Assembly: GCA_003216615.1 (NCBI GenBank)
Contig: QCIP01000004.1
Location: forward strand, 1-64,000
Direction: 5' to 3'
Source: Prochlorococcus sp. AG-402-M15
Lineage (GTDB): Bacteria; Cyanobacteriota; Cyanobacteriia; PCC-6307; Cyanobiaceae
DNA length: 64,000 bases
The notes below the pieces were generated by a model that was given only the letters and a program-made list of their open reading frames with translations, was not told the DNA's origin and searched no databases. Both the position numbers and the translations under genes were made by a program. The number at the start of each line of letters is the position of its first letter. Position 1 is the first letter of the stretch. Shown here one piece after another: positions 8,510 to 21,854 of the stretch.

Positions 8510-9751
8510 TTGAGCCAGTTAGATTCCAATTGGTCGTTTGTTGATGACAGTAAGGTAACGACACCTAAGGGGTTTCTTTTTGCTGGGATATCTGCTGGAT
8601 TAAAAGCTTCTAATAAAAAAGATTTAGCACTAATACTAGCTCCAGAAGGAAGTATTTTTAGTGGAATGTTTACCCAATCAATAGTTCGCGCTTCTTGTGT
8701 GGATATTTGTGAGGAAAGGATTAAAACGACTTCAGGTTTTGTACGAGCAATACTAATTAATTCTGGTCAAGCAAATGCATGTACAGGAAATCTTGGAATT
8801 CAACATTTTCAAATTGCTACAGGAAAGATTGCGGAACTTTTAGGAATAAAAGAAGAAGAAGTTTTAATGTGCTCAACTGGTGTAATTGGTGTTCCAATAC
8901 AAATAAATGATTTAGTAAAAAATTTACCGAATTTAGTTAGTGATTTAAAGGGTAATAACTTTCAAAATGCAGCAGAAGCAATTTTAACTACTGATTTGAC
9001 TTTGAAAAAAGTTTTAATAGAGACGATTATTCAAGGTAGAAAAATAAAAATAGCAGGTTTTGCAAAAGGTTCAGGAATGATTTACCCCAACATGGCTACA
9101 ATGCTTGCTTTTCTAACCTGTGATGCGGGTATTCAAAAAGAAGAATGGGACAGAATGATTGCTATTGCGGTTAAAAAATCTTTTAATGCAATATCAGTTG
9201 ATGGAGAGACAAGCACAAATGATTCTTTTGTTGGAATAAATGCAGGAGAGAAAATTGAAAAAAGTTTTTTTCCAATTATCCAAAAAGGGATTGATATTGT
9301 ATGTCAAAACTTGGCAAAAAACATTGCAAGGGATGGAGAGGGAGCAAATTGTTTATTAGAAGTTTTGGTTCAAGGAGCAAAAAATACTGATGATGCAATT
9401 ATGCTCGCAAAATCTATTTGTAATTCTGCCTTGGTAAAAACTGCGATACATGGTTGTGATCCGAATTGGGGTCGAATCATTTCTGCTGCAGGCAATTCTG
9501 GAGTTAAATTTAATTTAAATTACGTTGATTTGTTTATAGGTAATGCTCAGATTTTGGAACACGGCAAGTTAAATAAATATGATCCACAAAAAGTCACAGA
9601 CTACATTAAGTCCAGAATGAAAGGTAGATATTTAGTTGATGATATTGTACAAATTATGATTAATCTAAATTCTGGCGAATCGAAAGGCACAGCTTGGGGG
9701 TGCGATCTTTCTAAAAAGTATGTTGAAATCAATAGCGAGTATACTACTTAG
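8510..9751 (+). CDS. argJ: Bifunctional ornithine acetyltransferase / N-acetylglutamate synthase
   Basis: ArgJ transfers the acetyl group from N-acetylornithine to glutamate, recycling acetyl in arginine biosynthesis. The protein has 413 residues with a TTG start. The self-cleavage site between the alpha and beta chains is visible in the KGSGMI...NMATML motif; T197 is the expected catalytic nucleophile. The GCDPNWGRI motif of the beta chain is also present. Its last ten codons have a degenerate in-frame copy 724 bp downstream (see findings), which is unusual for this genome type. Confidence 0.96.
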   Translation: MSQLDSNWSFVDDSKVTTPKGFLFAGISAGLKASNKKDLALILAPEGSIFSGMFTQSIVRASCVDICEERIKTTSGFVRAILINSGQANACTGNLGIQHFQIATGKIAELLGIKEEEVLMCSTGVIGVPIQINDLVKNLPNLVSDLKGNNFQNAAEAILTTDLTLKKVLIETIIQGRKIKIAGFAKGSGMIYPNMATMLAFLTCDAGIQKEEWDRMIAIAVKKSFNAISVDGETSTNDSFVGINAGEKIEKSFFPIIQKGIDIVCQNLAKNIARDGEGANCLLEVLVQGAKNTDDAIMLAKSICNSALVKTAIHGCDPNWGRIISAAGNSGVKFNLNYVDLFIGNAQILEHGKLNKYDPQKVTDYIKSRMKGRYLVDDIVQIMINLNSGESKGTAWGCDLSKKYVEINSEYTT

Positions 9752-9768
9752 CTCAAATCCATTGTGCT

Positions 9769-9817
9769 GCAGTCGATCTTGGCGAATATAATTTTTATTA
9801 AAACACTAATAAAACAG
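9769..9817 (+). repeat. About 49-bp degenerate repeat unit, copy 1
   Basis: This unit begins GCAGTCGATCTTGG and ends with the 19-nt core TAAAACACTAATAAAACAG (9799-9817). The core recurs identically at 10318-10336 and with one change at 10379-10397. The leading part of the unit recurs at 10350 with mostly transition differences. It lies between argJ and the DUF805 gene. I do not recognise it as a known element. Confidence 0.6.
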
Positions 9818-9918
9818 TAATAAAGTTATAGTATTTAATCTCACTCCAAAGTCTCTTTTTAGTATTGAATTTGTTCCTAAACATTTGCAATTTATAATGC
9901 TTTTAATAAGAGAAATTT

Positions 9919-10317
9919 ATGATTCAATCATTCTTATTAGCATGGAAAAATGCTTTTGTTTTCAAAGGGAAAACATCAAGAAAAGATTTCTGGTTTTTTC
10001 AATTAGCAAGTTTTATTTTATTTCTAATATTGAATATTGCTCAAAATTTGCTGGTGAATTTGCAGTATGTTTTTCTTACCAGTGATTACTCTCTTCTTAG
10101 CACAATATTTGCAGTTATTGGTCAAACAATCTCCCTTGTTTCTTTCTTTTATATTTTGGGTAATTTTATCGTGGGTTTATCAATTTCAGTTAGACGATTA
10201 AATGATATATCGAAAAAGTGGGCATGGATTTTTATTCAAATAATTCCAATTTTAGGATCGATATATTTTATTTACTTAATGTGCCAACCTTCTTTTGATG
10301 CAAATTCACAAGAATAA
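9919..10317 (+). CDS. DUF805 (YhaH-like) inner membrane protein
   Basis: This 132-residue protein is very hydrophobic, with about three to four membrane segments. It carries the DUF805 hallmarks: an N-terminal WKNAFVFKGKTSRKDFWFF segment (family pattern of a tryptophan/aromatic-rich start with RxxFW) and a central RRLNDISKKW motif. DUF805 proteins are small bacterial membrane proteins of unknown function. The ATG has an AGAGAAAT stretch upstream. It is flanked on both sides by copies of the same short repeat and lies between argJ and a degenerate copy of argJ's 3' end, so it may be a recent arrival. Confidence 0.8.
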   Translation: MIQSFLLAWKNAFVFKGKTSRKDFWFFQLASFILFLILNIAQNLLVNLQYVFLTSDYSLLSTIFAVIGQTISLVSFFYILGNFIVGLSISVRRLNDISKKWAWIFIQIIPILGSIYFIYLMCQPSFDANSQE

Positions 10318-10397
10318 TAAAACACTAATAAAACAGTGCTTTAGTGGTAGCAGTTAATCTTAGTGAGAAGAATAAAAATAAAACACTAATAAAACAC
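10318..10397 (+). repeat. Repeat copies 2 and 3 downstream of the DUF805 gene
   Basis: The 19-nt core seen at 9799 recurs exactly at 10318-10336, directly after the DUF805 stop codon. It recurs again at 10379-10397 with the last base changed. The second of these is preceded by a GCAGTTAATCTTAGTGAG block (from 10350) that matches the start of copy 1, so 10350-10397 is a full copy of the unit and 10318-10336 a half copy. Confidence 0.6.
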
Positions 10398-10441
10398 TAA
10401 CTCAATCCTTCAGAACCATTGGTATGACAAACTTTTATCCT

Positions 10442-10475
10442 GTATGTTTTTATCAATAGCGAATATATTACTTAA
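10442..10475 (+). pseudogene. Degenerate duplicate of the argJ 3' end
   Basis: These 34 bases match the last 34 bases of argJ (9718-9751) at 28 positions without gaps. Translated in the argJ frame they read YVFINSEYIT-stop against YVEINSEYTT-stop in ArgJ. The match fades upstream. It is too short to code for anything; I read it as a scar of duplication or of insertion into the end of argJ. The 10468-10710 gene on the other strand ends inside it. Confidence 0.55.
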
Positions 10476-10710
10476 GTTTTAGTAAATCTATTGGTAGATA
10501 TTCATTTATATAAAGAAACAGTATTGTTAAAGTGCCAATAACAGAACCTATCAAACCTCCAAAAAAATTAACTAATAATCCAGATTGTCTAATTTTTGCT
10601 TCTTCATTTTTTTCTTCTTCGAAATTAGGAGAATCAACTACTTTTAAGCGCTGATTGGTTGTTGGTTGTTTGATTTGTTGGTGTCGGATGAGGGCTTCGA
10701 AATCAGGCAT
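10468..10710 (-). CDS. Small single-span membrane protein overlapping the parA-like gene
   Basis: This reads as 80 residues from the ATG at 10710: a polar, charged N-terminal half (MPDFEALIRHQQ..., then an acidic EEEKNEEAK patch), followed by one hydrophobic, glycine-containing membrane segment (about residues 50-70) and a short tail. A longer start at 10734 is possible. It overlaps the 3' end of the parA-like gene by 67 bp in a different frame, so the two are probably co-transcribed and translationally coupled. I do not recognise a family; a role as membrane partner of the ParA-like ATPase is only a guess. Confidence 0.55.
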   Translation of the reverse strand: MPDFEALIRHQQIKQPTTNQRLKVVDSPNFEEEKNEEAKIRQSGLLVNFFGGLIGSVIGTLTILFLYINEYLPIDLLKLK

Positions 10711-11315
10711 GGAATTTGTGAGGCAATTGAACAATAAGCAGACCAGCCCGTCATTCGACGAGGATCTGATCTGCCTAAATCGTCTACAGCTTCAAATACT
10801 GCATTACCAGAGGCTTCTGCTTTATCAAATGCTGAAAGTAAGGGGATAAATGTATCAAAAACATATAAACCAAAATTTTCTAGAGCTGCTTTGGCTTGTT
10901 GCGCTGCTTTTTGCTGTCTAAAATCAACTTTTACTATTACTACTGCATGGTTAACTTTTAAGTTACTTAATAAATTAGCTAGTTCGACAGTTAATTCCAC
11001 TGATCTTGCTTTTGCAGTTGTAGGTAAGATAACTAAATCTGAACCATACGCTAAGTGTTTAAGTTCTTCTTGATCACTGCTAGCCTGGCCATCAGTTATT
11101 ACAATTTCTGATGATCTTGATGCTTTAGCAGCTGAACTAACGGGGAAAACTGGAAATGGAAGATTGCCTCTTGATGCGTATGCTAATGCAGATCTATTCT
11201 TGTCGGCATCGACTATGCAAACTTTTTTATTTTCAGAATGCCAAACACTTGCAAGGTGAATACTTGTGCAGGTCTTGGCCACCCCCCCTTTTTGTCCGCA
11301 AACGGTAATGAACAA
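10644..11315 (-). CDS. Orphan ParA/MinD-family ATPase
   Basis: This 223-residue P-loop protein begins with the deviant Walker A of the ParA family (CGQKGGVAKT, residues 6-15), followed by the VDADKNRSA (Walker A') and VITDGQAS regions. Family members position plasmids, chromosomes or protein cargo. There is no parB, no obvious parS and no replication gene nearby, so this is not an evident chromosome-partition locus. The start is TTG at 11315. The Walker A codons contain a run of seven G. The C-terminal 23 residues are encoded by DNA shared in another frame with the downstream membrane-protein gene. Confidence 0.8.
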   Translation of the reverse strand: MFITVCGQKGGVAKTCTSIHLASVWHSENKKVCIVDADKNRSALAYASRGNLPFPVFPVSSAAKASRSSEIVITDGQASSDQEELKHLAYGSDLVILPTTAKARSVELTVELANLLSNLKVNHAVVIVKVDFRQQKAAQQAKAALENFGLYVFDTFIPLLSAFDKAEASGNAVFEAVDDLGRSDPRRMTGWSAYCSIASQIPCLISKPSSDTNKSNNQQPISA

Positions 11316-12575: not shown

Positions 12576-12729
12576 TTTGCAGGGTTGGAGTTTTTAATAA
12601 GATAAATTAATTTAAAACTAATCTTCTCAGTATTTATACCTATAAAGTTAAAAAAATTCTTTTTAATACAAGCAATTGCAGCAATATTTACAAAATAACA
12701 AATTATCTACTACAACTTCTAAGTTATTT

Positions 12730-21829: not shown

Positions 21830-21854
21830 TGCAGTTAAACCAGAATTCATTAAA

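Follow-up and report, generated by a model that had tools for sequence, protein, structure and literature searches.

The genome of Prochlorococcus is among the smallest known for free-living phototrophs, yet strains differ in many genes. The argJ locus described here raises the question of how cassettes of a few hundred bases, without a recombinase of their own, move between ocean cells. Such cassettes, often carrying a single gene and placed at one exact spot, look like a compact way of swapping genes in Prochlorococcus. We examined this locus in a 64,000-nucleotide stretch of the Prochlorococcus sp. AG-402-M15 genome (the window) and compared it with argJ loci across the genus.

A second argJ end in the window

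The last 34 bases of argJ (window positions 9718-9751) align without gaps to a copy at 10442, with 28 of 34 matches and a start-to-start spacing of 724. The runner-up match to the argJ end within the 64-kb window reaches 21, and simulated sequences reached at most 21 (100 sequences of 1 kb) or 24 (20 sequences of 64 kb). Chance similarity was thus ruled out by simulation (28/34 versus ≤24). An earlier note, made from the sequence alone, had claimed this recurrence, and the claim held on recount and simulation. The note had also read the second copy in the same frame, as YVFINSEYIT-stop. The peptide is literally present, but we read it differently, as an att core on the right end of an element and not as a gene end. 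Two further claims held, namely that only a DUF805 gene and short repeats lie between the copies (the short repeats are tandem 11-bp repeats) and that no integrase is present, the latter for the window insert, in which the profile search shows no tyrosine recombinase. DUF805 is the sole gene of this insert, which consists of a single unit. On comparative evidence, a 724-bp cassette is likely integrated here, with the second argJ end as its right-hand attachment copy (Table 1).

Table 1. Parts of the cassette and its flanks, in window coordinates.
Feature	Position	Strand	Evidence or reading
argJ	8510..9751	+	Pfam ArgJ, 2.8e-128; 3' end is the attachment site (attB/attL)
attL core AATAGCGAGTATAC	9731..9744	+	Inside the ArgJ Asn-Ser-Glu-Tyr-Thr codons; common to other junctions
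Element left end	9745..9830	+	ArgJ Thr-Thr-stop plus one 11-bp repeat pair; end alignment and period-11 test
Left tandem 11-bp repeat pair	9799-9820		Putative arm-type integrase sites
DUF805 cargo, 132 aa	9919..10317	+	PF05656, E 4.6e-18
Element right end, family RF2	10313..10454	+	Two 11-bp repeat pairs, then a core-proximal segment
Right tandem 11-bp repeat pairs	about 10313-10334 and 10377-10398		
attR core AATAGCGAATATAT	10455..10468	+	Chromosomal half site comes next; matches the argJ end at 28/34
Small ORF convergent with argJ	10468..10734	-	No Pfam family

The stop codon of the convergent small ORF lies beside the crossover, and the ORF therefore abuts or overlaps the argJ end in strains with an empty site; in empty loci its match starts -1 to 32 nt from that end. 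The core pattern AATAGYGARTATA occurs at three places in the window's own genome, two of them at the argJ insert and the third (L192) resembling the end of an unrelated ORF. The only tRNA-type genes of the window are a tRNA-Leu at 21854 and a tmRNA at 12713; the insert borders the argJ end instead. No known RNA was matched in Rfam between window positions 9600 and 10600 up to E 0.1.

Empty and filled argJ loci across Prochlorococcus

The loci compared include the best 80 of 451 matches and 30 loci from 55 genomes with a match. For all of them the match had to reach residue 412, and merging those that share the last 600 nt of argJ reduced 149 loci to 107. Because best-match subsets were taken, the 107 lean towards close relatives of the window's ArgJ. 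Forty-eight of these distinct loci are empty, 53 are filled and complete, and 6 are filled but cut by a contig end; an earlier count under another rule gave 54 filled and 45 empty.

Where the site is empty, argJ is followed immediately by the convergent small ORF known from the flank of the window's insert. We joined the window's flanks at the core and compared the product with 47 empty loci. The best six are 94-95% identical over 306 nt and match 47-48 of the 50 nt at the junction, and the worst, from a diverged strain, still matches 220/306 and 40/50, respectively. The comparison that the earlier note had proposed, of clean argJ junctions in some strains and differing cargo in others, is thus positive, with 48/107 loci empty and 59 carrying varied cargo. 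The outcome that would have refuted an insertion site, the same DUF805 gene and second copy in all relatives, did not occur.

The junctions share a core of ~14 bp, AATAGCGAATATAC or a near variant, called with up to 3 mismatches where the following bases fitted. The right-hand core is clear in 44 of the 53 complete inserts and missing or degraded in 9 at the cut-off used. The chromosomal right side usually keeps TACTTAAG, and the sequence upstream of the right core is element-specific. Our reading of the core, which rests on no test, is of inverted half-sites TAAATAG and CTACTTA around CGAATATA. After the left core, every one of the 59 filled loci recreates Thr-Thr-stop, and 22 distinct 9-nt codings are used for this. 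The single coding ACTACTTAA is shared by 46 of the 48 empty loci, which have three codings overall. Since the ArgJ end is rebuilt by 22 codings that depend on the insert, the crossover lies inside the core and the element supplies the ArgJ end. This supports the earlier note's suggestion that an element integrates into the gene end and restores it.

The note's alternative was a decayed local duplication of the argJ end, with unrelated sequence between the copies. Two similar copies in the same orientation would fit this, but the empty alleles (48/107), the varied cargo elsewhere, the conserved element ends and the restored ArgJ end all but exclude it.

In 20 of the 59 filled loci the core also recurs inside the insert, and such an insert is therefore a row of units. 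One example is L060, from the cultured strain MIT 9314. Measured from core to core, 69 units range from 144 to 9043 bp, and 58 of them are under 2.5 kb. The comparison shows a site with empty and filled alleles, conserved ends, varied cargo, a restored ArgJ end and arrays.

On a tree of argJ alone (105 of the 107 loci), the filled or empty state changes 36 times, against a mean of 34.7 (range 26-41) for shuffled labels, of which 141/200 sets gave 36 changes or fewer. Occupancy of the site thus carries no phylogenetic signal. A docking site that is filled in 59/107 loci and does not track the argJ tree offers a concrete route for the exchange of small genes, including those for adhesins, nucleases and defence-like helicases.

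Ends and cargo of the units

Comparison of unit ends reveals that left and right ends pair by family. LF1/RF1 comprises 14 units. Within the left cluster LF0, which is a chained single-linkage cluster and not one clean family, 18 units pair with RF0, 9 with the window's RF2 and 9 with RF3. LF2/RF5 and LF3/RF4 are minor families of 3 units each, and there are a few mixed pairs and singletons.

Many ends carry tandem repeats with a period of 11 bp. At a threshold of at least 9/11, these are found in 30 left and 28 right ends of the 60 units of at least 700 bp, compared with 2% of 240 internal windows; the same ends scanned at periods 8-10 and 12-14 give 0-3 of 60. About half of the unit ends fall below the threshold. 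The positions of the right repeat pairs relative to the core are nearly fixed within a family: near -78 and -141 in RF0 and RF2, -85 and -148 in RF3 (in part), and -96 and -197 in RF1. The RF2 layout is found in 6 of the 8 RF2 units of at least 400 bp. For the RF2 repeats, a regular expression matched only 3/8 left and 6/8 right ends; the period-11 test took its place.

Tyrosine integrases have arm-type sites with a layout like that of these end repeats. By this analogy, we read the family-specific 11-bp repeats as putative arm-type binding sites of a cognate integrase. The two smallest units (L117 unit 1, 144 bp, and L131 unit 1, 185 bp) are free of cargo, their left and right ends being fused via one shared repeat pair, as if cargo had been lost by recombination between the arms.

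The ends are also tied to the site. A 20-nt motif of the RF1 right end, with one mismatch allowed, occurs at 31 places in 29 of 265 genomes, and its reversed control nowhere. All 30 of the loci read lie at an argJ-type junction, and in 28 of them the core follows at +39 (≤2 mismatches). Beyond these cores lies the argJ-side flank or, judged by eye, the left end of another cassette. Two loci with this motif (L235 and L238) have degraded cores, yet are joined to the argJ-side flank. Among the loci compared at that stage, the off-site matches of end profiles that were inspected were duplicates, either of the window's own argJ locus (L193, L194) or of the L179 element described below (L163, L164, L173, L176). 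A phage satellite (PICI/VEIME) would be expected in virus particles; four cassette-end motifs had no exact match in IMG/VR viral contigs, where the core pattern had one match, in unrelated sequence.

Cargo is varied. In 54 inserts, of which 10 are truncated, 152 ORFs of at least 45 aa were read; they form 65 groups, including 47 with a single member. An adhesin group with a YadA anchor has 25 copies in 21 inserts and is found with several different end families. Among the proteins tested with Pfam and PADLOC, nuclease and helicase cargo includes PD-(D/E)XK and HNH nucleases, a Z1 helicase, a restriction-like Mrr-helicase protein and a DnaB-like helicase. Other cargo includes PEBP, cobalamin adenosyltransferase, methyltransferase, glycosyltransferase, carbamoyltransferase and an outer-membrane barrel protein; several further cargo proteins tested had no match in either resource. 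Compared by eye, like ends occur with unlike cargo and like cargo with unlike ends.

The first 111 loci, of which some are short, contain the window's DUF805 gene only in the window's own two. Close relatives occur in 3 of 265 genomes of the genus and are 76-79% identical in one comparison and 74-75% by tblastn. In the first (L267), the related cassette is the only unit, bordered on one side by an argJ that shares 83.5% identity with that of the window and on the other by the usual flank. In the second (L265), it forms an internal unit, next to ends of other cassettes on either side. In the third (L266), a 3.4-kb stretch that includes neither argJ nor the flank, another cassette end and a core lie upstream of the DUF805 relative, and no RF2 right end is recognisable. 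Two more DUF805 paralogues, 34-36% identical to that of the cassette, are encoded on the same contig outside the window (G000:C4:79354 and 80384).

Recombinases at argJ and comparison with known systems

Among the 329 open frames of at least 60 aa in the inserts, a profile built from eight integrases identified a tyrosine recombinase in exactly 3 of the 59 inserts. The profile includes the three integrases it recovers, and 6 of the 59 inserts are partial. Some loci were collected because they carry an integrase; this raises the 3/59 and may also bias the sample towards filled sites.

The first of the three, L177, is a 6.5-kb unit in which the gene for a 468-aa integrase (PHROG integrase, 2.4e-20; both of two Pfam matches fell below cut-off) lies immediately downstream of argJ. 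The unit also encodes a ParB-methylase and a serine recombinase of 238 aa, and is followed by a 274-bp unit. The second, L178 (4.7 kb), encodes an integrase 57% identical to that of L177 and a 179-aa serine recombinase, followed by an adhesin cassette. In its assembly (G091:C5), argJ is split into two frames, reflecting either an assembly error or a broken gene. The third, L179 (9 kb), has a 527-aa integrase near its right end (PF00589, 1.4e-6). R268, K331, R394-H395 and Y426 are kept in four aligned integrases, two from the argJ site, one from flv1 and one from guaA, and a profile of these four matches integrases of known structure (best 1.4e-7).

Two of the three inserts share one or both ends with cassettes that lack a recombinase. 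For the right end of L177, the score was 182 with the recombinase-less unit L188_u1 and 72-80 with RF5 cassettes, above a null maximum of 45. The two ends of L179 scored 71 and 69 with RF3-type cassettes, above null maxima of 45 and 47, respectively. No cassette match above the null was obtained for the left end of L177 or for either end of L178. No integrase-bearing element was found for RF0 and RF1, the commonest end families, or for the window's RF2. That a recombinase acts on most families, that of the window included, is thus an inference.

Relatives of the L177 integrase occur in 10 of 266 genomes of the genus and those of the L179 integrase in 5 of 265, distant ones counted. At E 1e-3, none of the argJ integrases has a relative in the window's own genome. 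A PF00589 search of that genome found two genes, one for a 457-aa integrase that follows guaA and the other of ~389 aa. The former (L154, G000:C13:20929) encodes a tyrosine integrase and lies immediately downstream of a guaA-like 3' end, which may be a third site of the protein-gene type; we take the upstream gene to be guaA. The latter (G000:C5:63501-63920, E 3.1e-8) is a candidate host recombinase of unknown role, and open frames of ~386-404 aa with a modest PF00589 match are present in about 75 of 101 genomes of the genus, counted by eye. The L090 integrase had no match in viral contigs or phage records.

A second protein-gene end that resembles an insertion site is the flv1 3' end, ~10 kb upstream of argJ. 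The distance from flv1 to the next flv gene is usually ~17 bp, and inserts are present, by eye, in 7 of 28 readable loci (L196-L225), with 2 more cut by contig ends. Their left ends rebuild Tyr-stop. Tyrosine integrases of ~500 aa are encoded at the flv1 site in L184, L185, L186 and L188.

We consider it likely that integrase-less, cis-mobilizable cassettes accrete at the argJ att site and are moved in trans by rare tyrosine integrases, with mobility itself inferred. In this view, the attachment site is formed by the final ~20 bp of argJ, at the point where this gene and the convergent small ORF meet end to end, and a tyrosine recombinase would join a circular cassette to it inside the shared core AATAGCGAATATAC. 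The left end of the integrated cassette gives ArgJ its Thr-Thr-stop and the right end carries a second core, so that a further cassette could insert and tandem arrays could grow. Most cassettes lack a cognate integrase and would be moved in trans by the rare integrase-encoding elements at the argJ site. The earlier note's suggestion of a site used by a mobile element supplied elsewhere is the best fit, given 56/59 inserts without a tyrosine recombinase and three with one. That these enzymes recombine the cassettes in trans, and still do so, is inferred from comparison only; no excision, circle or transfer was observed. Homologous recombination via argJ and its flanks could spread integrated cassettes as well, and would also erase phylogenetic signal.

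A possible alternative is that the inserts are old remnants of site-specific elements, spread only by homologous recombination with no recombinase still acting. In favour of this are the 56/59 inserts without a tyrosine recombinase and the 9/53 complete inserts without a clear right core; free recombination would equally give no phylogenetic signal. Against it, relatives of the DUF805 cassette occur singly and within different arrays, with boundaries at the core. Exchange of whole alleles moves no unit into another array, and this therefore counts against the remnant reading, as do the two end families with integrase-bearing relatives at the argJ site.

A second alternative, which we regard as unlikely, is that a tyrosine recombinase encoded by the host, such as the widespread ~389-aa one, moves the cassettes in trans like an integron integrase. 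The presence of such frames in about three quarters of the genomes surveyed, the window's own included, would fit. However, integrase-bearing elements do exist at argJ, and, as a general argument, family-specific arm repeats suggest several enzymes and would be needless for a single host one.

A bolder form of the preferred, accretion reading, which we find more doubtful than probable, is a genus-wide, tRNA-independent cassette bank in which small cassettes are stacked and swapped behind argJ. It would include several families of ends that share one core but differ from each other in arm-site code and cognate integrase, and a parallel form behind flv1, and would amount to a phage-arm equivalent of the integron in a streamlined genome.

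Among known systems, cis-mobilizable elements (CIMEs) lack an integrase, keep attL and attR, and stack in tandem at a target gene (PMC5704250). The argJ units resemble the accretion of CIMEs and of ICE/IME elements in being att-bounded, integrase-less and in tandem in 20/59 filled loci, and in that integrase elements adjoin other units in L177 and L178. Unlike CIMEs, they measure 0.14-9 kb, with 58/69 under 2.5 kb, and several end families share one site. No conjugation genes were noticed among the argJ-insert ORFs read, although no dedicated search was made. Origin from, and mobilisation with, an integrase element, which is one criterion for a CIME, is only hinted at, by shared ends for two families but not for that of the window.

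Tandem islands at ssrA in Dehalococcoides are likewise bounded by a direct repeat of a gene 3' end; 16 of them have an integration module and 15 do not, and the description of that module names a parB homologue and a smaller serine recombinase (PMC3146451). There, the enzyme is a serine recombinase of ~540 residues and the target a tmRNA, whereas the argJ system has tyrosine integrases and a protein gene.

Within Prochlorococcus, tycheposons are described as elements of 4-200 kb with a tRNA border (Hackl et al. 2023, via PMC10872708). The argJ elements share with them the genus, the carriage of cargo by integrative elements and the tyrosine recombinases. They differ in lying at a protein-gene end, in being mostly <2.5 kb and in mostly lacking a recombinase, as does the 724-bp cassette of the window. 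A picocyanobacterial element with a divergent tyrosine integrase, often near a small serine recombinase, is reported beside tRNA-Phe or tRNA-Cys (PMC10187409). L177 and L178 similarly pair tyrosine and small serine recombinases, but are sited at argJ. The relevant sections of PMC10187409 and PMC2784084 do not mention argJ. Titles and abstract beginnings in the literature searched do not name argJ as an integration site, although a mention by Hackl et al. 2023 is not excluded, and no paper there combined argJ, genomic islands and cyanobacteria.

Gene-cassette arrays of integrons are rows of small, similarly oriented cassettes. The argJ rows, with one orientation and small, varied cargo, would fit a true integron, in which folded single-stranded attC cassettes are inserted by IntI beside attI. 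We consider this very unlikely, given a tyrosine recombinase in only 3/59 inserts (inserts were profiled, not flanking DNA), 11-bp end repeats at fixed distances from the core, and rows placed in the 3' end of a core gene. Unlike integron arrays, the argJ inserts lack a recombinase gene in 56/59 cases, have phage-like arms and target a core-gene end. Thus, by the features tested, the argJ array is a CIME-type array and not a tycheposon, and in its outcome it is integron-like.
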